A stretch of 64,000 nt of DNA from Streptomyces sp. KMM 9044 (GTDB lineage Bacteria > Actinomycetota > Actinomycetes > Streptomycetales > Streptomycetaceae). A program made the translations under genes and the position numbers. Positions 47,592-56,389 of this stretch are shown here, in pieces (position 1 is the stretch's first letter; each line of letters starts with the position of its first letter). The notes below the pieces were generated by a model. The model saw only the letters and a list, made by a program, of their open reading frames with translations, did not search any database and had not been told where the DNA came from. The stretch is from assembly GCF_024701375.2 (NCBI RefSeq), contig NZ_CP113910.1, positions 620,001 through 684,000 of the forward strand, read 5' to 3'.

Positions 47592-48251
47592 TCAGGACCA
47601 GTGCGCCACCGCGTCGAGGTGGGGCAGGTTGTGGTCGAGGCGTTCCCGCTTGGTGCGCAGGTAGGTGATGTTACTCTCGCACGGCGGGATCAACAGCGGT
47701 ACCTGTTCGGTGACCTGGATGCCGTGCTGCTGCAACGCGTCGCGCTTGCGGGGGTTGTTGGACATCAGCCGGACCGACTCCACGCCCAGGTCCTGGAGGA
47801 TACCCGCGGCGACGCCGTAGTCGCGGGCGTCCACCGGCAGGCCGAGGGCGAGGTTCGCCTCGACGGTGTCCAGGCCCTCCGCCTGCAGGGCCATCGCGCG
47901 CAGTTTCGCCAGCAGGCCGATGCCTCGGCCCTCGTGCCCTCTCAGGTAGACGACCACGCCCGCCCCTTCGTCGGCGACGGCGCGCAGCGCGGCGGCGAGC
48001 TGGTCGCCGCACTCGCAGTGCCGGGAGCCGAACGCGTCCCCGGTCAGGCATTCCGAGTGCAGCCGGGTGAGGACCCGGTCCGCGCCGATATCGCCGTGAA
48101 CCAGGGCGACTTGTTCGTCACCGCGGTCGTGGTCCAGGTAGCCGACCGCCTGGAACTTTCCGTACACGGTGGGCAACGGTGCATTCACGACGCGTTCCAC
48201 GCCGGTGCGCTGCGGGGGCTTCTTGCCGAGTACGCCTATGTTTTCTGTCAT
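47592..48251 (-). CDS. ribA: GTP cyclohydrolase II variant (Met120 type)
   Basis: 219 residues from ATG 48251. Zinc cysteines C-L-T-G-D-A-F-G-S-R-H-C-E-C-G (residues 68-82), catalytic R-G-H-E-G-R-G-I-G-L near 104 and S-N-N-P-R-K near 168 are present. The riboflavin-type enzymes have K-I-R-A-Y-S; here residue 120 is Met (K-L-R-A-M-A). From work on S. coelicolor paralogues as I recall it, Met at this position makes the enzyme release the formylated intermediate (FAPy) instead of the full product. There are no other riboflavin genes nearby. It is divergent, 41 bases apart, from a creatininase-family gene that could remove the formyl group. Confidence 0.9.
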   Translation of the reverse strand: MTENIGVLGKKPPQRTGVERVVNAPLPTVYGKFQAVGYLDHDRGDEQVALVHGDIGADRVLTRLHSECLTGDAFGSRHCECGDQLAAALRAVADEGAGVVVYLRGHEGRGIGLLAKLRAMALQAEGLDTVEANLALGLPVDARDYGVAAGILQDLGVESVRLMSNNPRKRDALQQHGIQVTEQVPLLIPPCESNITYLRTKRERLDHNLPHLDAVAHWS

Positions 48252-48292
48252 GATTCTCGAGTTCCTAAGCAGAGACGGAAGGCCGTGAGGAT

Positions 48293-49096
48293 ATGAGTGG
48301 TTCACCAAAGCGGTCGGCGGCATACGGCCCGGTCCACGGTCTGTTGCCGGCGGATACTACAGAAGATGTACGGAAGCGGGGCGCCGACGTCTCACGGCAG
48401 ATCGCGGTCCTTCCCGTCGGGAGTTTCGAGCAGCACGGCCCGTTCCTGCCGCTGGCTACCGACACGCTGGTGGCGTGTGCCGTCGCGCGGGAGATCGCCG
48501 ACGCGTATCCGGTGCATCTCCTGCCTCCGGTGACGATCGGCTGCTCGCACGAGCACGCGGCCTGGCCGGGAACCGTCTCCATCTCCTCCGTGACCCTTCA
48601 CGCGGTGGTACGGGACATCGCCGACTCGCTGCGCCGGTCAGGTGTGGACACCCTGGTGGTGGTCAACGGACACGGCGGAAACTACGTACTCGGCAACGTC
48701 GTTCAGGAATCATCCGCCCGCGGTGAGCGCATGGCGCTGTTCCCCGCCCCGGAGGACTGGGAGACCGCGTTGCGGCACGCCGGTGTGGAAACCTCACTGC
48801 TCACCGACATGCACGCGGGGGAAATCGAGACCTCCATCCTTCTGCGCACTCATCCCGAATTGCTCCGACCCGGTTATGAGACCTCCGATCACGTAGCCGA
48901 CGACCGGAGCCAGTTGCTCACGCTGGGAATGTCCGCCTATACCGATTCCGGTGTCATCGGCCGCCCTTCGCTGGGCTCGGCGGACAAGGGCAGGGAACTC
49001 CTGGTGAGCCTCGTGGACTCCTTCGGCACGTATTTCTCGATGCTCTCCCCCGCCTCCGCTCCGGCCTCGGCCCCCAGCGGTGTCAGCGGGGCGTAG
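48293..49096 (+). CDS. Creatininase-family amidohydrolase, candidate FAPy formamide hydrolase
   Basis: 267 residues. Metal-site residues of the creatininase fold are intact: G-S-F-E-Q-H-G near residue 42 (Glu, His), A-T-D-T-L near 56 (Asp), N-G-H-G-G-N near 122 (His) and M-H-A-G-E-I-E-T near 165 (Glu). The family includes ArfB, which deformylates the FAPy nucleotide in archaeal riboflavin/F420 synthesis, and MftE. Adjacent to a FAPy-type GTP cyclohydrolase, deformylation is the best guess. Its last 160 bases overlap the end of the convergent membrane protein gene. Confidence 0.85.
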   Translation: MSGSPKRSAAYGPVHGLLPADTTEDVRKRGADVSRQIAVLPVGSFEQHGPFLPLATDTLVACAVAREIADAYPVHLLPPVTIGCSHEHAAWPGTVSISSVTLHAVVRDIADSLRRSGVDTLVVVNGHGGNYVLGNVVQESSARGERMALFPAPEDWETALRHAGVETSLLTDMHAGEIETSILLRTHPELLRPGYETSDHVADDRSQLLTLGMSAYTDSGVIGRPSLGSADKGRELLVSLVDSFGTYFSMLSPASAPASAPSGVSGA

Positions 49097-50208
49097 TCCG
49101 GGATGTCCTGCGCGTCGGAGGCGGGTGCGGGTCCGGGCGTGGGGGCGGCGGCCGTCCGGCGGCCGGCGCGCAGGCCGGCGTACCAGCGGGCGACGAGCAC
49201 GAGCACACCGGGCAGGCTCGCCGCGAGGCTGAGCACTCCGTAGACCACGGCGACGGTCAGGCCGCGGCCCGCGCCCAGTCCCGCGGCGCCGAACGCCCAG
49301 GCGGCGACGCCCTCGCGGGGGCCCCAGCCGCCGACGTTCAGGGGCAGCGACATGGCGAGCAGCGCCAGGACGGCCAGGGGCAGCAGCTCGGTCACCGCCG
49401 CACCGACCCCGGCGACACGGGCGGCGAGGACGAACATCGCCAGGTATCCGGCCAGGACGACGGAGGAGGAGACGAGGACGCCCGGCCCGTTGCGCCGGGA
49501 CAGCAGCCCCTCACGTGCCTCGGCGAGCGCCGACCGCAGCGCCCGGCCCCGGCGGGAGGGTCCCGGCCGGTTCATCCGCAGGGCGAGGACGACAGCGCAG
49601 GCACCCAGTGCGGCGAGGCCCGCCATGGGTGCCGCCTGCCGCAGGTCGTCGCGGACCGGGGACGGCATGGTCAGCAGCATCACGGCGCCTGCGGCGAACA
49701 GCGCGAGCTGTCCGGCGGTCCGCTCCAGGACCACGGACCGCACCCCGCGGCCCAGGTCGCCGGTGCTCTGCCCGTGCCGTACCGCGCGGTGGACGTCGCC
49801 GAGGACGCCTCCGGGCAGGGCCGCGTTCAGGAACAGGGCGCGGTAGTAGTCGGCGACCGCCGGGGCGAGGGGCAGCCGGATGCGCAGGGCGCGGGCCACC
49901 AATGCCCAGCGCCAGGCGCTGAACACCGTGGTCACCAGCCCGATCCCGAGCGCCACCAGCAGGGACGGCCCGTCGATCCGGCGCAGCCCGTCGACGAAGA
50001 CGCCGGTGCCCAGGCGCCACAGCAGCACGGCGAGGATGGCGACGCCGGCGACGGTGCCGATGCGGGTGCGTACGGCGGGGGTGTTGAGCCGGGCGAAGAA
50101 GGCGCGGGGGCCGGTGGCGGTACCGGCACCGGGGCGTACGGGGTGCGACGGGGACGGCTCCGGAATGGGCAGGCCCAGTACCGGTGTCTCCACCGCCCTG
50201 GCGGTCAC
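48937..50208 (-). CDS. Lysylphosphatidylglycerol-synthase-TM/flippase-like membrane protein (UPF0104)
   Basis: 423 residues from GTG 50208, overlapping the methyltransferase stop (GTGA). Seven or eight hydrophobic helices between residues 50 and 345, with F-S-A-W-R-W-A-L-V-A-R-A-L, L-P-G-G-V-L-G-D-V-H-R-A and P-L-N-V-G-G-W-G-P-R-E-G-V typical of the AglD/UPF0104 group. These are thought to move or modify lipid-linked molecules. A Pro/Ala-rich C-tail of about 80 residues lies opposite the creatininase coding end. Last gene of the minus-strand cluster operon. Confidence 0.82.
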   Translation of the reverse strand: MTARAVETPVLGLPIPEPSPSHPVRPGAGTATGPRAFFARLNTPAVRTRIGTVAGVAILAVLLWRLGTGVFVDGLRRIDGPSLLVALGIGLVTTVFSAWRWALVARALRIRLPLAPAVADYYRALFLNAALPGGVLGDVHRAVRHGQSTGDLGRGVRSVVLERTAGQLALFAAGAVMLLTMPSPVRDDLRQAAPMAGLAALGACAVVLALRMNRPGPSRRGRALRSALAEAREGLLSRRNGPGVLVSSSVVLAGYLAMFVLAARVAGVGAAVTELLPLAVLALLAMSLPLNVGGWGPREGVAAWAFGAAGLGAGRGLTVAVVYGVLSLAASLPGVLVLVARWYAGLRAGRRTAAAPTPGPAPASDAQDIPDYAPLTPLGAEAGAEAGESIEKYVPKESTRLTRSSLPLSAEPSEGRPMTPESV

Positions 50209-51256
50209 GCGGTGCCGCCCGCCGGCCGGCACAGGGCGAGCAGGTCGGTGTGGTGGACGACGACCCGCAGGTCGCCCGCGGCGCAGGCCTCCAGACGCTC
50301 GGTGAGGTACCGGCTCGCGGGCTCGGCCAGTTCGGGGCGTTCCTCGACCGCCGCGCCGACCCAGCCCCGCAGCCACTGGGCGATCAGCCCCGCGTGCTCG
50401 GGGCCGAGCCGCCAGGGGCTCGGGTTGAGCCGTACGGTCGCCCCGTGCTCGGAGAAGGCTTCCGCGGCGGCGGTGGCCGCGTCCGGGCCGAGCAGTCCGC
50501 CTCGCTTCTGGTGGGCGTTGAACGCCTCGGCGATCTCCTGGTCCAGCGGGTGAGGCGCGGTCAGTTCGGCGCGTCCGGCCACCGACAGCGTGAGCAGCGC
50601 CGGGCAGCCGGCTCCGGCGCAGGCGGCGGCGAGGGCGTCGACGTCCTCGCGGGTGAGGACGTCGAGGAGTGCGGACGCCGTCACCAGGGAGGCGCCGGAC
50701 AGGGCGTCCGCGGTGAGCCGGGCGACGTCGCCGCGCCGGGTCTCCACACTGACGCGGCTGCCGTCGGCGGCGGACCGCGGGGAGGCAACGGCGGCGAAGT
50801 GCAGGAGGTAGGGGTCCCGGTCGTGCAGGACCCAGTGCTGGGCGCCGTCCAGGCGGGGCGCGAGCCAGCGGCCCATCGAGCCGGTGCCGCAGCCGATGTC
50901 GTGGATGACGAAACCGTCGGCCCGTTTCGGCAGGTTGGCGAGCTTGATGCGCAGCGGGTCGAGCAGGTCGTGGGCCCGTGCGAAGGCGTCGGCGGGTTCG
51001 CGCAGCTGGAGCCACTCGGGCGCGTACCGGGCGGGTTCGTCCGCCTCGGGGTCGGTGTCGCTGCCCGTCCCCCGCAGCCGGAGGGTGGCCCGCTCACCGG
51101 GATGCGGCGCGGGGCCGGCACCGGGGATGACGGACTGGGCGTCCCCGGACCGGGGGCCGGGCTGGGCCGGGATCGCGCCGGTGCCACCCGTGTCCGTGGT
51201 CATGGCCGTACTCGCGCCGGTTCCGCTGCCGGTCTGCTGTGTCGTCGCCTGCTTGG

Positions 51257-51260
<4 letters not shown>
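50205..51260 (-). CDS. SAM-dependent class I methyltransferase
   Basis: 351 residues from ATG 51260, in an ATGA overlap with the glycosyltransferase stop. A disordered N-terminal 60-90 residues (Thr/Gly-rich) precede the Rossmann fold with V-I-H-D-I-G-C-G-T-G-S-M-G-R-W near residue 118, then W-V-L-H-D-R-D near 142 and A-S-A-L-L-D-V-L-T near 190. Substrate unknown. An internal ATG (M-T-T-D-T-G) is an alternative start. Its tight position within the cluster suggests methylation of the pathway's product. Confidence 0.82.
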
Positions 51261-52986
<1,726 letters not shown>

Positions 52987-53040
52987 TTAGTACGGCCGGA
53001 CGCCTCCCGGCGTTCAGCGTCGGGCATGTCTTTTCTCAGG

Positions 53041-54024
53041 TCAGGCGGCGGCCTCGTCATAACGCACGAGATGGCACAGGGCCGGGGTGTCGCCGGAGGC
53101 GAGGCGGGGCATGAGTGCGGGCAGTTCCGCGAACCTGGACTCGCCGGTGATGAGCGCGTCCAGGGCCGGGTCGGCCAGCAGGTCGAGGGCGAGGGCGAGC
53201 CGGTCGGCGTAGCTGCGGCCGGGGCGGGCCGGGGAGACGGTGCCGACCTGGCTGCTGCGGATGACGAGCCGCCGTGAGTGGAAGGCCTCGCCCAACGGAA
53301 GGCTCACCTTCCGGTCGCCGTACCAGCTCAGTTCGATCACCGTGCCCTCGGCGGAGAGGAGTTCGAGGGAGCGGGTGAGCCCCTGTTCGGTGGCGCTGGC
53401 GTGCACGACCAGGTCGCAGCCGCCGAGGGCGTCGCCGGGCAGCGCGAACCCGACACCGAGGGCTTCGGCGGTCCTGGCGCGCGCGGGGTCGGCGTCGACG
53501 AGCTGGACCCGCACGCCCGGGAAGCGGGCCAGCAACGCGGCGACCGAGCTGCCGACCATGCCGCCTCCGACGACGGCGACCCGGTCGCCGATCAGCGGCG
53601 CCGCGTCCCACAGGGCGTTGACGGCGGTCTCCACGGTGCCGGCGAGCACGGCCCGCCGGGCGGGCACCGTGTCGGGTACGGGTGTCACCGCGCCCGCCGG
53701 GACGACGTAGCGGGTCTGGTGCGGGTAGAGGCAGAAGACCGTCCGCCCGACGAGCGCTTCCGGTCCTTCCTCCACCACGCCCACGTTGAGGTAGCCGTAC
53801 TTCACCGGCCCCGGGAAGTCGCCCTCCTGGAACGGCGCACGCATCGCGGCGTGCTGGCTCTCGGGCACCTGTCCGCGGAAGACGAGGGTCTCCGTGCCCC
53901 GGCTCACTCCGGAGTACAACGAGCGCACCAGGACCTCGCCCCCGCCCGGTCCGGACAGGGGGACTTCCCGGATTTCGCCTCGGCCGGGCGAGTCGAGCCA
54001 GAACGCATGAGCGGCGCGGTTCAT
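53041..54024 (-). CDS. MDR-superfamily (zinc-binding-dehydrogenase-like) oxidoreductase
   Basis: 327 residues from ATG 54024 behind AGGAGG. N-terminal GroES-like fold ([19 protein letters not shown]) and Rossmann motif [12 protein letters not shown] near residue 150. The zinc-ligand Cys of classical alcohol dehydrogenases is replaced (S-G-V-S-R-G-T-E), as in the BchC-like group. It likely oxidises an alcohol on the pathway intermediate with NAD(P). First gene of the minus-strand cluster; 114 bases separate it from the PTPS-like gene. Confidence 0.83.
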
Positions 54025-54132
54025 CGAATTCCTCCTGAACGTTCGTCACGTTGCACGCGTACCGAGTGGTGCACAGGCCGCGCACAAGGTAGCGGCGTTG
54101 ATCGACTCTGTCACACGGCCGGAGGGTGTTCG

Positions 54133-54894
54133 GTGGCCCTGAACAACAGTTACGACGCAAGGCTCGTACAGCAGGAAACCGCCGTGGGGGCGGGTGTACA
54201 GGTCCTGCTGCTGGTGCTGCTCGGTACGGCGATCGGCATGGGCCCTGCGGGCTGGCTGACCGGCCTCGCGTTCGCGATCGCCACGTGGGCGGTGCTCTCC
54301 CGGGCCCTGCACCGTTCCCGGCTGCGCTCGTTCGGCGCGGCCAACCGGGTCACACTCGGCCGGGCGATCCTGGTCGGCGGGGTGACCGCGCTGGTCGCCG
54401 ACTCCTTCCAGGACTCACCGCCCGTCACTCTCTTCGTCGGGCTGACCGCCGTGGCCCTCATCCTCGACGGGGTGGACGGCAAGGTGGCCCGCAGGACCGG
54501 CACGTCGACACCGCTGGGCGCCCGCTTCGACATGGAGGTGGACGCGTTCCTCATCCTGGTGCTCAGCGTGTACGTGTCCATGGCGATGGGCCCCTGGGTG
54601 CTGCTGATCGGCGGTATGCGGTACGCCTTCGTCGCCGCGGCCCGGGTGTGGCCGTGGCTGAACGCCGCGCTGCCGCCGAGCACGGCCCGCAAGGCGGTGG
54701 CCGCGCTCCAGGGAGTCCTCCTGCTGGTGGCGGGCGCGAACCTGCTGCCGCACCTGGTCAACGTCGGGGTGGCCGCGCTGGCGCTGGGGCTGCTGGTGTG
54801 GTCGTTCGGCCGGGACGTGCTGTGGCTGTGGCGGACCTCGCGGGTGTGGCCTGCCCCCGTCGAGCGGCCGGTGCGGGAACTCGTCGCGCGATGA
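54133..54894 (+). CDS. CDP-alcohol phosphatidyltransferase
   Basis: 253 residues from GTG 54133 with GGAGG upstream; divergent from the oxidoreductase. The CDP-OH-P motif D-G-V-D-G-K-V-A-R-R then G-A-R-F-D-M-E-V-D near residue 115 is complete. Six hydrophobic helices flank it. Such enzymes join a CDP-alcohol to a hydroxylated acceptor in the membrane. With the flippase-like protein and glycosyltransferase it suggests a lipid-linked product. Confidence 0.88.
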   Translation: MALNNSYDARLVQQETAVGAGVQVLLLVLLGTAIGMGPAGWLTGLAFAIATWAVLSRALHRSRLRSFGAANRVTLGRAILVGGVTALVADSFQDSPPVTLFVGLTAVALILDGVDGKVARRTGTSTPLGARFDMEVDAFLILVLSVYVSMAMGPWVLLIGGMRYAFVAAARVWPWLNAALPPSTARKAVAALQGVLLLVAGANLLPHLVNVGVAALALGLLVWSFGRDVLWLWRTSRVWPAPVERPVRELVAR

Positions 54895-54934: not shown

Positions 54935-55440
54935 GACGTCGGCCGCGGGAGCGGTCGTACCAGGTCGCCTCCAAGCCGGCCGAGCCACCGTGGCCCGGCC
55001 GCCAGTCGTGGACCAGGTAGCAGTCGGCTGTCGGGCCCGTCATGGAAGAGGGACGCGTCGAAGCCCCGCGCGTGCAACGGCACGGGATCGGACCAGGAGC
55101 CGTGGGTCGACGGGACCGTGGTGAGGCAACCGGGGCTGTCGGTGAAGCCCTCCCGCACAGGTGGAGACGTTGCTGTAGACCAGATGGAACAGGCCGTCCG
55201 CGTAGGTGAGGTTCGGCGCCCACACCCCGCCGGAGTCCGGGCAGCCGGTGAGATCGAGGAGGCGTGTGGCGTTCAGGGCACCGGCCAGCGGCTGCCAGTT
55301 CACGAGGTCACGGGAACGGCGCAGTCGGACTCCGGGGTGCCAGTCGAAGGTCGAAGTCGCCGGACAGAGGTCGTCGCCCACGCGCGGCACGGACGGGTCC
55401 GGGTGCGAACCCGGCAGGACCGGATTACGGGATGATCTGG
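54935..55440 (-). pseudogene. GH43-type beta-xylosidase, fragmentary
   Basis: Minus-strand pieces in different frames are collinear with a GH43 N-terminus: N-P-V-L-P-G-S-H-P-D-P-S-V-P-R-V-G-D-D, then T-S-T-F-D-W-H-P-G-V, D-S-G-G-V-W-A-P-N-L-T-Y-A-D-G-L-F-H-L-V-Y, then (shifted) S-W-S-D-P-V-P-L-H-A-R-G-F-D-A-S-L-F-H, then (shifted) L-V-H-D-W-R-P-G-H-G. At least two frameshifts and the loss of about 300 residues make it dead. Confidence 0.8.
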
Positions 55441-55944
55441 GTGGCTGACTGCCGCATGCGCCTCGTGCGCCTTTCAGGCTCCGGACGGCCGCGTCCGTGG
55501 AGGCCGTTGATCGCCGAGGACCGTGATGTCGAACGTGCTTGCGTGCGATGGGCTGTCGGATCGCCGCCCACATCCCCCTTCCAGGCGCCCCCTCCCCCAC
55601 AAGCGCCCGTCCGCGCCGGCACCCGGACGTGTCCGTGCTGCCGGCGTGTGCTGCTGCCTCGTGTCCGACGCGGACACCGGGCCGAGGGGCCTGACCTGCC
55701 CGGACACCCGGAGGAAGGACACGAAGCTCCGGGAACCGGGCGAGAAGAACCCGAAGATCTTCAGCTGCCCGGGCCTTCCCGCTGTGACGCCTCCCTCGAC
55801 CCGGTGTCTGGACGGCGCCGGTGTCCTGAGGACGAGCGCGCCGGACGTGTCCGTGAAACGGCTCACCCCTCTGAGCGCCCGTGGGCACGATCTTGCCCTG
55901 GATGTGCCCTCGGGCGGCGCGTCCGACCTCACCACCGGCCGACG

Positions 55945-56000
55945 CCCGGCACCCGGCACCCGGCACCCGGCACCCGGCACCCGGCACCCGGCACCCGGCA
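55945..56000. repeat. Minisatellite: eight perfect CCCGGCA units
   Basis: 56 bases of exact 7-bp repeats followed by a partial CCCG. The period is not a multiple of three and no gene spans it. Confidence 0.9.
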
Positions 56001-56050
56001 CCCGCGGAGTGTTCCTCGGTCTCCGGGAGCAATCCGGAATTGATGATTCC

Positions 56051-56064
56051 GTGACACCTGTCAC
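56051..56064. promoter_or_regulatory. Crp-like palindrome
   Basis: GTGACACCTGTCAC is a perfect palindrome with a 2-base centre and fits GTG-N6-G-N-CAC, like the site upstream of ssgD. It lies about 330 bases before the CAP-domain gene. Confidence 0.4.
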
Positions 56065-56389
56065 ACCGCGTCCGTGATCTACGCAGGTCACCTAGTAGAA
56101 CCCACTCTGATGACATAAGGGATTTGTCCGGCTTGCCATGGGCGTGAGGCCGGCCGGGGTGAGCGGTGATCCGGTGGGGAGAGGAGAGCCGCGGTTCTTT
56201 CGCCGGGCGGGAGCTTCTGACGAGGCGACAGGCCTTCCGAGAGGCCCGTCGCGAGCAGGTCGGCATGCTCTCCCGCCCGCCGCAAGACCCTCGCGGACCT
56301 ACGAAGCCCGGTAGTGCGACGGCCTTTGCGCCCTGCGCCGGGCCGTCCCAAGAATGACGACCTCCGGACAGCAGCAGGTGAGGTCACGC

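Follow-up and report, generated by a model that had tools for sequence, protein, structure and literature searches.

The window analysed in this study, a 64,000-nucleotide stretch of Streptomyces sp. KMM 9044 (NZ_CP113910.1, positions 620,001 to 684,000), harbors a cluster of eight genes encoding a GTP cyclohydrolase II (GCHII), a creatininase-family hydrolase, a flippase-like membrane protein, a methyltransferase, a glycosyltransferase, a PTPS-like protein, a dehydrogenase and a CDP-alcohol phosphatidyltransferase (Table 1). The conservation of this cluster is far beyond chance, and the eight genes represent a real, conserved pathway, which is so far uncharacterised. Sequence comparison strongly supports the creatininase-family protein as the deformylase partner of a GCHII releasing formamidopyrimidine (FAPy), because it is present exactly where the cyclohydrolase is devoid of its catalytic tyrosine. 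The cluster as a whole might constitute a dedicated route from nucleotide to glycolipid, leading from GTP via FAPy, a diaminopyrimidine and a pterin to a glycosylated, methylated and lipid-linked product; we regard this reading as evenly poised between right and wrong.

Of 80 Streptomyces loci retrieved via the PTPS-like protein, 75 contain all eight genes in an unchanged order; this count leaves out the two loci from the window genome itself (L001 and L002). Taken singly, the dehydrogenase, the glycosyltransferase and the CDP-alcohol phosphatidyltransferase are present in 79 of these loci each, the methyltransferase in 78, the flippase in 76, and the creatininase and GCHII in 75 each. The five loci without creatininase and GCHII comprise four at contig edges and one lone PTPS gene (L072). 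The cluster core recurs in families beyond Streptomyces. The earlier note had taken the genes for one cluster, inherited as a unit and comprising enzymes for sugar, methyl and lipid transfer, which is borne out by these conserved gene sets, both in the complete Streptomyces loci and in the core shared with other families. The core is even larger than that note had it, since a reductase, a gene array of the Rubrobacter family and an LtaS-like partner domain are to be added. The subfamily of the PTPS-like protein, PTPS-IV, was detected in 154 of the 293 genomes sampled from the order (one of nine genera, i.e. the genus of the window only). A class sample yielded it in 57 of 394 genomes, which represent 25 of 137 genera; in the phylum sample, 34 of 296 genomes gave PTPS matches, including distant ones that are not PTPS-IV. 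For the wider survey, 59 of 93 matching genomes were fetched in the main round; a 60th region (G473) was taken from the class sample and some others had been obtained earlier.

The cyclohydrolase of the window contains the zinc cysteine motifs of PF00925 (HSEC...CECG), which are conserved among its relatives. With the start at 48251 and not at 48323, residue 120 is a methionine in place of the tyrosine that presumably acts in deformylating turnover, whereas the one other GCHII found in the 7.43-Mb window genome, a RibBA-type enzyme (L001), carries tyrosine at the same position. Across 63 relatives, the creatininase-family protein shows conservation of the motifs EQHG, TDT, HGGN and DMHAGE-ETS; these include what we take to be the metal-binding residues. 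Met120 and an intact metal site had both been described in the earlier note and were seen again here, the latter as EQHG, D, HGGN and E; the note's proposal of a FAPy-type cyclohydrolase paired with a creatininase-family deformylase gains support from the strict co-occurrence described below and the conserved metal motifs. The window creatininase remains below the cut-offs of the models for ArfB (NF033501, 36 vs 180 bits) and for MftE of mycofactocin biosynthesis (TIGR03964, 132 vs 172 bits).

Among 92 loci with full context, creatininase was found in all 64 loci with a non-tyrosine GCHII, in none of the 10 tyrosine-type loci and in none of the 18 loci devoid of a GCHII. This set includes 19 Streptomyces loci (12 of the 80 named above and seven others, L164-L170). 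Excluded were nine loci with the PTPS gene less than 6 kb from the end of the stretch or contig and the full pair absent (L226, L230, L149, L156, L158, L175, L192, L196 and L203), L191, for which no glycosyltransferase match was found, and, by choice, L161-L163 and L241. For L173, creatininase was scored manually as present, because the gene is located just outside the stretch and is seen in L241 of the same genome. When all stretches of at least 11 kb are considered, creatininase is present in 126 of 128 non-tyrosine loci (M, H, L, Q, K, N or I at the position) and again in none of the 10 tyrosine-type loci; the two exceptions are edge effects, one being L173 and the other L230, where the stretch ends 2.3 kb from the PTPS gene. 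On a tree of the core, each of the two traits requires nine changes, and all five independent pairs that could be drawn from well-supported branches are concordant (p 0.0625 in a sign test, the minimum possible for five). Both this tree and that of GCHII are quick trees without bootstrap and with long-branch warnings, among them one for L157 with L159. Eighteen genomes with a GCHII-less cluster were searched as a whole: all 25 GCHIIs detected are of the tyrosine type, and a creatininase match at E 1e-20 was obtained in two of them (G776, 58% identity; G819, 35%).

Several observations weigh against a strict coupling. Only two independent pairs exist among the loci keeping GCHII, and of eight independent pairs in which one member has GCHII and the other has not, about four show the corresponding difference for creatininase and about four show none. 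The weakly resolved GCHII tree needs a single change from tyrosine to non-tyrosine, and the loss of tyrosine may have been one event. G776 is the one real exception, with an orphan creatininase (L269:9755-10477, the match with 58% identity) and tyrosine-type GCHIIs only. The coupling rests on the repeated joint presence and absence of GCHII and creatininase, not on repeated loss of the tyrosine.

Cyclohydrolase and creatininase together would give a genuine riboflavin intermediate, and they might just feed precursor to ordinary riboflavin synthesis, the neighbouring genes being unrelated. A creatininase-annotated enzyme of this kind is BrbF of Sinorhizobium and Brucella, which according to the accessible text of its description (PMC9478397) deformylates FAPy ribotide, serves riboflavin synthesis in Rhizobiales and has a cyclohydrolase partner "yet to be discovered". 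A reductase-deaminase protein is available in trans in the window genome. The BrbF neighbours given in the same accessible text are MarR and CobW genes, in contrast to the sugar and lipid genes of the window cluster. However, GCHII and creatininase stay with PTPS-IV, the glycosyltransferase, the methyltransferase, the flippase and the CDP-alcohol phosphatidyltransferase across families. Furthermore, the window genome possesses its own RibBA-type GCHII, no deaminase was identified among the cluster proteins scanned, and neither riboflavin deaminase nor lumazine synthase was found among the eight genes by profile scan. A role limited to riboflavin is considered improbable.

A relative of the RibD_C reductase is encoded beside GCHII in all ten tyrosine-type loci. 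In eight of them the reductase is 59 to 100% identical to the protein of L144, which is the query itself; in L157 and L159 (31 to 35%) it shares one reading frame with GCHII (L157:11114-12472 and L159:12996-14930, on the opposite strand to the adjoining dehydrogenase-PTPS-glycosyltransferase core). The reductase can be linked to GCHII because of this adjacency and the two fusions. Among reaction-specific models, that of the archaeal reductase acting before deamination fits the L144 protein best (TIGR01508, 128 bits, below the cut-off of 186), and the solved relatives of this protein include 2,5-diamino-6-ribosylamino-pyrimidinone phosphate reductases. Reductase matches were also detected in six GCHII-less loci and, at lower similarity (27 to 38%), between flippase and creatininase in the seven Streptomyces loci L164-L170; in L166, the reductase frame shares 4 bases with the creatininase gene at the end of the latter. 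A further locus with tyrosine-type GCHII and reductase (L290, 3.8 kb) is too short to count. Tyrosine-type GCHII with a 26 to 27% reductase match is also present in L285 and L288; L285-L289 were left out, having distant or absent PTPS matches and no adjoining dehydrogenase or glycosyltransferase. Elsewhere, the window genome encodes a reductase relative (55% identity across 220 residues) that carries a deaminase domain at its C-terminus. The frame with the reductase first and the deaminase second is located at L273:9232-10566; the usual domain order of bacterial RibD is the reverse. Stand-alone pairs of tyrosine-type GCHII and a Rib7-like reductase are located away from the PTPS-IV cluster in G776 (L270:9039-10411 and L271:8762-10295), and a pair of the same kind is present in G666 (L272).

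By its sequence, the PTPS-like protein of the window is assigned to the named subfamily PTPS-IV; a database match bears the name 'PTPS-like type 4'. It is a close relative of SCO6650 of Streptomyces coelicolor (PDB 3d7j) and carries FGPAQ, given in the accessible text of the AGeNNT paper (2017, PMC5445326) as the PTPS-IV signature of COG0720, with a neighbourhood of PF00925 and PF01872. FGPA is present in at least 98% of 196 distinct PTPS-IV sequences, across which LHGAT, His14, Asp51 and a late glutamate are also kept. The catalytic set of PTPS and QueD was not seen in the window protein when compared by eye to PDB 1b66 and 2g64 (Cys replaced by Ala, HGH by HGA and DH by NY), and the QueD model gave 34 bits at a cut-off of 89; a queuosine role was rejected on the catalytic residues. 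PTPS-IV and its neighbours could also act in the synthesis of coenzyme F420, as an involvement of archaeal PTPS-IV in F420 is stated, as unpublished, in the accessible text of Zallot et al. 2016 (PMC5041015); no other function was found in the literature. This misfits the actinobacteria because PTPS-IV and CofH (FO synthase) occur apart in both directions: all 12 Streptomyces genomes examined that have no PTPS-IV show CofH above cut-off, and 8 of the 16 non-Streptomyces genomes that have PTPS-IV do not, so that an F420 role was rejected for this phylum and is given hardly any credence. Replacement of FolE was likewise rejected, since FolE was found in 24 of 24 genomes tested; folate synthesis is therefore independent of the cluster. 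Apart from the main match to GTP cyclohydrolase I, the window genome has a second one (G000:C1:309685-310200). Solitary PTPS-IV copies outside any cluster occur in some Streptomyces (L072:9941-10399 and L161-L163), of which L161-L163 share some neighbours, read by eye as a VOC-type protein and a flavin oxidoreductase; as a clue to the product they were discarded, the neighbours being uninformative. Genome G301 has two PTPS-IV loci that differ in sequence (L139 and L150; identities to the window of 76% and 63%).

For the Rubrobacter family, 12 of 19 matching genomes were fetched. All 12 loci contain, in this order, genes for FolB (divergent), the reductase, the dehydrogenase, a PTPS-IV-like protein and the glycosyltransferase; FolB is the dihydroneopterin aldolase. 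A methyltransferase follows in 11 of 12, an acyltransferase (PF01553) is located beyond FolB in 11 of 12, and a GCHII (tyrosine type) is encoded inside the array in one (L292). All 12 PTPS-IV-like proteins have retained the zinc motif HGH; they were grouped with PTPS-IV by gene order and FGPA only. These arrays bear on the nature of the product, which might be a pyrimidine instead of a pterin: a ribityl-diaminopyrimidine or nucleotide would be glycosylated directly and lipidated, and PTPS-IV would be a binding or isomerising enzyme for a ligand other than a pterin. The products of GCHII and the reductase are indeed pyrimidines, and the actinomycete PTPS-IV is devoid of the PTPS catalytic residues. 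On the other hand, the PTPS family and the conserved glutamate suit a pterin-like ligand, and in the Rubrobacter family FolB adjoins a core whose PTPS-IV-like protein retains HGH. A glycosylated pyrimidine is regarded as unlikely, albeit deserving serious attention.

Among the remaining proteins, the window dehydrogenase is a divergent member of the MDR family. Inspection by eye did not show the zinc-ligand motif that is usual there, and a generic NAD-binding domain is its sole match above cut-off. Solved relatives of the GT4 glycosyltransferase include D-inositol 3-phosphate glycosyltransferase (7qsg, 3c48). For the methyltransferase, no PDB sequence relative was detected at E 0.1; an alignment of 28 sequences shows invariant columns. 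The motif D-DG-AR-G-D-D of the CDP-alcohol phosphatidyltransferase is intact and conserved (DGVDGKVARRTGTSTPLGARFDMEVD). In seven distant loci (L141, L146-L148, L150, L152 and L153) the frame of this enzyme is 724 to 844 residues long and contains an LtaS/sulfatase-like match beside the CDP-alcohol match; in L144 and L154 the LtaS/sulfatase-like domain is encoded by a separate neighbouring gene, which in L144 scores 27.2 bits with the Sulfatase model of Pfam, above the cut-off of 25. The fused LtaS-like part rests on tblastn similarity, because scans of the long frames of L147 and L152 show the CDP-alcohol domain only. An Acyl_transf_3 gene is present in some loci. The product could still be a soluble glycosylated pterin, with the membrane genes serving export or belonging to an unrelated cell-wall lipid. 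L155 (and L156 and L158, which are edge-limited) fit such a product, since they contain dehydrogenase, PTPS and glycosyltransferase but none of the lipid genes searched for. It is opposed by the recurrence of CDP-alcohol phosphatidyltransferase, flippase and LtaS-like genes with the core in distant loci and by the PF01553 acyltransferase paired with the core of the Rubrobacter family; a soluble product is rather unlikely.

A lipid-linked pterin could arise as follows. The Met120 cyclohydrolase would open GTP with retention of the formyl group and release FAPy ribotide, which the creatininase-family enzyme would deformylate to 2,5-diamino-6-ribosylamino-4(3H)-pyrimidinone 5'-phosphate. A diaminopyrimidine reductase, encoded in the cluster of many relatives and for the window perhaps provided from elsewhere in the genome, would then convert the ribose to a ribityl chain (reduction at C1') with the 2-amino group kept. 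The MDR dehydrogenase may re-oxidise a side-chain alcohol; at C2' this would give the same amino-ketone as the product of GTP cyclohydrolase I, which is made by Amadori rearrangement and from which a dihydropterin can form by cyclization. The amino-ketone compound would be bound by PTPS-IV, which would help to close the ring or to trim the side chain, yielding a pterin to be decorated by the glycosyltransferase and the methyltransferase. Finally, the CDP-alcohol phosphatidyltransferase would join the compound to a phospholipid and the flippase-like protein would carry it across the membrane; in relatives the LtaS-like domain might pass it on. The coupling of the first two steps, the link of reductase and GCHII and the co-inheritance of the rest are supported by the comparative evidence, while the substrates from the reductase step onwards, the product and its membrane anchoring are plausible but unproven.

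Other findings count against this pathway. No reductase is encoded in the window cluster, and 18 of the 92 loci are devoid of a cluster GCHII. L155, L156 and L158 show dehydrogenase, PTPS and glycosyltransferase only, and the substrate could therefore come from elsewhere, e.g. from folate metabolism. In all 12 proteins of the Rubrobacter family, the residue after FGPA is S, T, A or V instead of Q. FolB of the array is the sole FolB copy in 11 of the 12 genomes and may therefore also, or only, serve folate. The Rubrobacter dehydrogenase that was scanned is closest to BchC (82 of 291 bits), followed by polyol-type dehydrogenases, all below cut-off. It would be a bold and rather doubtful extension to assume one actinobacterial pathway from Rubrobacter to Streptomyces, in which a pterin is formed without GTP cyclohydrolase I chemistry, by GCHII (with a formamidase added where the tyrosine is lost), ribityl reduction, re-oxidation at C2' as a redox replacement of the Amadori rearrangement, and ring closure with the help of PTPS-IV, and is then glycosylated, methylated and displayed as a new class of membrane phospholipid headgroup.

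The arrangement of the genes agrees with the positions given in the earlier note, which are borne out by reading frames and family profile matches. All eight genes are intact, seven of them are above the curated cut-off of the expected Pfam family (the methyltransferase barely so), and sequence motifs are conserved in all eight protein families. GCHII and creatininase genes are divergent. Between dehydrogenase and flippase on the minus strand, three of four junctions are 4-base overlaps (PTPS/glycosyltransferase, 52528-52531; glycosyltransferase/methyltransferase, 51257-51260; methyltransferase/flippase, 50205-50208), as had been noted for most of the operon, and the fourth (dehydrogenase/PTPS) is a 114-base gap. 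The frames of creatininase and flippase are convergent and overlap by 160 bases; conservation of the flippase stops near residue 340, and about 53 of its last, non-conserved codons (approx. 80) are antisense to the creatininase gene. Adjoining the cyclohydrolase, a gene of the beta-lactamase family (PF00144, 46208-47563) may travel with the cluster, because 71 of the 80 PTPS loci from Streptomyces contain a match, which in one case is weak (31%). Downstream of the CDP-alcohol phosphatidyltransferase (55040-56266), an apparently degraded fragment of a glycosyl hydrolase, along with a short tandem repeat, was recognized by eye in the list of open reading frames.

Table 1. Genes and intergenic regions of the cluster, in positions of the window
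Feature	Position	Strand	Basis
GTP cyclohydrolase II (GCHII), Met120 for catalytic Tyr, predicted FAPy-forming	47592..48251	-	PF00925 225.6 bits
Short divergent intergenic region, cyclohydrolase/creatininase	48252..48292	.	sequence
Creatininase-family hydrolase, predicted FAPy formamidase (deformylase)	48293..49096	+	PF02633 209 bits
Flippase-like membrane protein (LPG_synthase_TM)	48937..50208	-	PF03706 102 bits
Class I S-adenosylmethionine (SAM) methyltransferase	50205..51260	-	PF13649 27.7 bits, cut-off 27
GT4 glycosyltransferase	51257..52531	-	PF00534 102 bits
PTPS-IV, TTG start, relative of SCO6650	52528..52926	-	sequence, residue comparison
MDR-family dehydrogenase, BchC-like	53041..54024	-	TIGR01202 45 bits, cut-off 291; conserved motifs
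Divergent intergenic region (probable promoter), dehydrogenase/CDP-alcohol transferase	54025..54132	.	sequence
CDP-alcohol phosphatidyltransferase, GTG start	54133..54894	+	PF01066 51.8 bits; motif

Parts of the cluster resemble systems that are already known. In work of Spoonamore, Bandarian and co-workers from 2006-2008 (Biochemistry 2006 among it), SCO6655 of S. coelicolor reportedly is a GCHII that releases FAPy because of Met120, and SCO6650, to which the window PTPS is closely related, is said to be devoid of the PTPS zinc and triad; to our knowledge, no pathway, deformylase or product was assigned there. The archaeal ArfA/ArfB route has a FAPy intermediate with separate deformylation, and in archaea and fungi reduction by RIB7 precedes deamination. 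As far as we know, ArfA is not a GCHII; ArfB differs from the window creatininase by its model score, and the L144 reductase resembles the archaeal/fungal RIB7 type in its best-fitting model. In cyanobacteria and green sulfur bacteria, pterin glycosyltransferase systems produce glycosylated pterins from products of GTP cyclohydrolase I, and we know of no GCHII, deformylase or phospholipid enzymes in them. FGPAQ and the PF00925/PF01872 neighbourhood are common to this cluster and to the PTPS-IV of the two cited papers (AGeNNT 2017; Zallot 2016), whose accessible text, unlike the window cluster, includes no mention of glycosyltransferase, deformylase or lipid genes. The statement of the earlier note that the cluster could not be matched to a known pathway was too strong, as PTPS-IV had been named, its neighbourhood of GCHII and RibD_C published, the structure of SCO6650 solved and, according to the accessible text, a creatininase-annotated FAPy formamidase recognized in Rhizobiales. 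A description of the whole cluster was not found in literature searches, in which the PTPS-IV papers were reached via open-licence PMC text only. If the assignment is true, a FAPy-releasing bacterial GCHII would be paired with its deformylase, and PTPS-IV would gain a pathway, with F420 removed as its role in actinobacteria. A new metabolite, probably of the glycolipid type, would then be indicated, PTPS-IV being present in more than half of the genomes sampled from the order.

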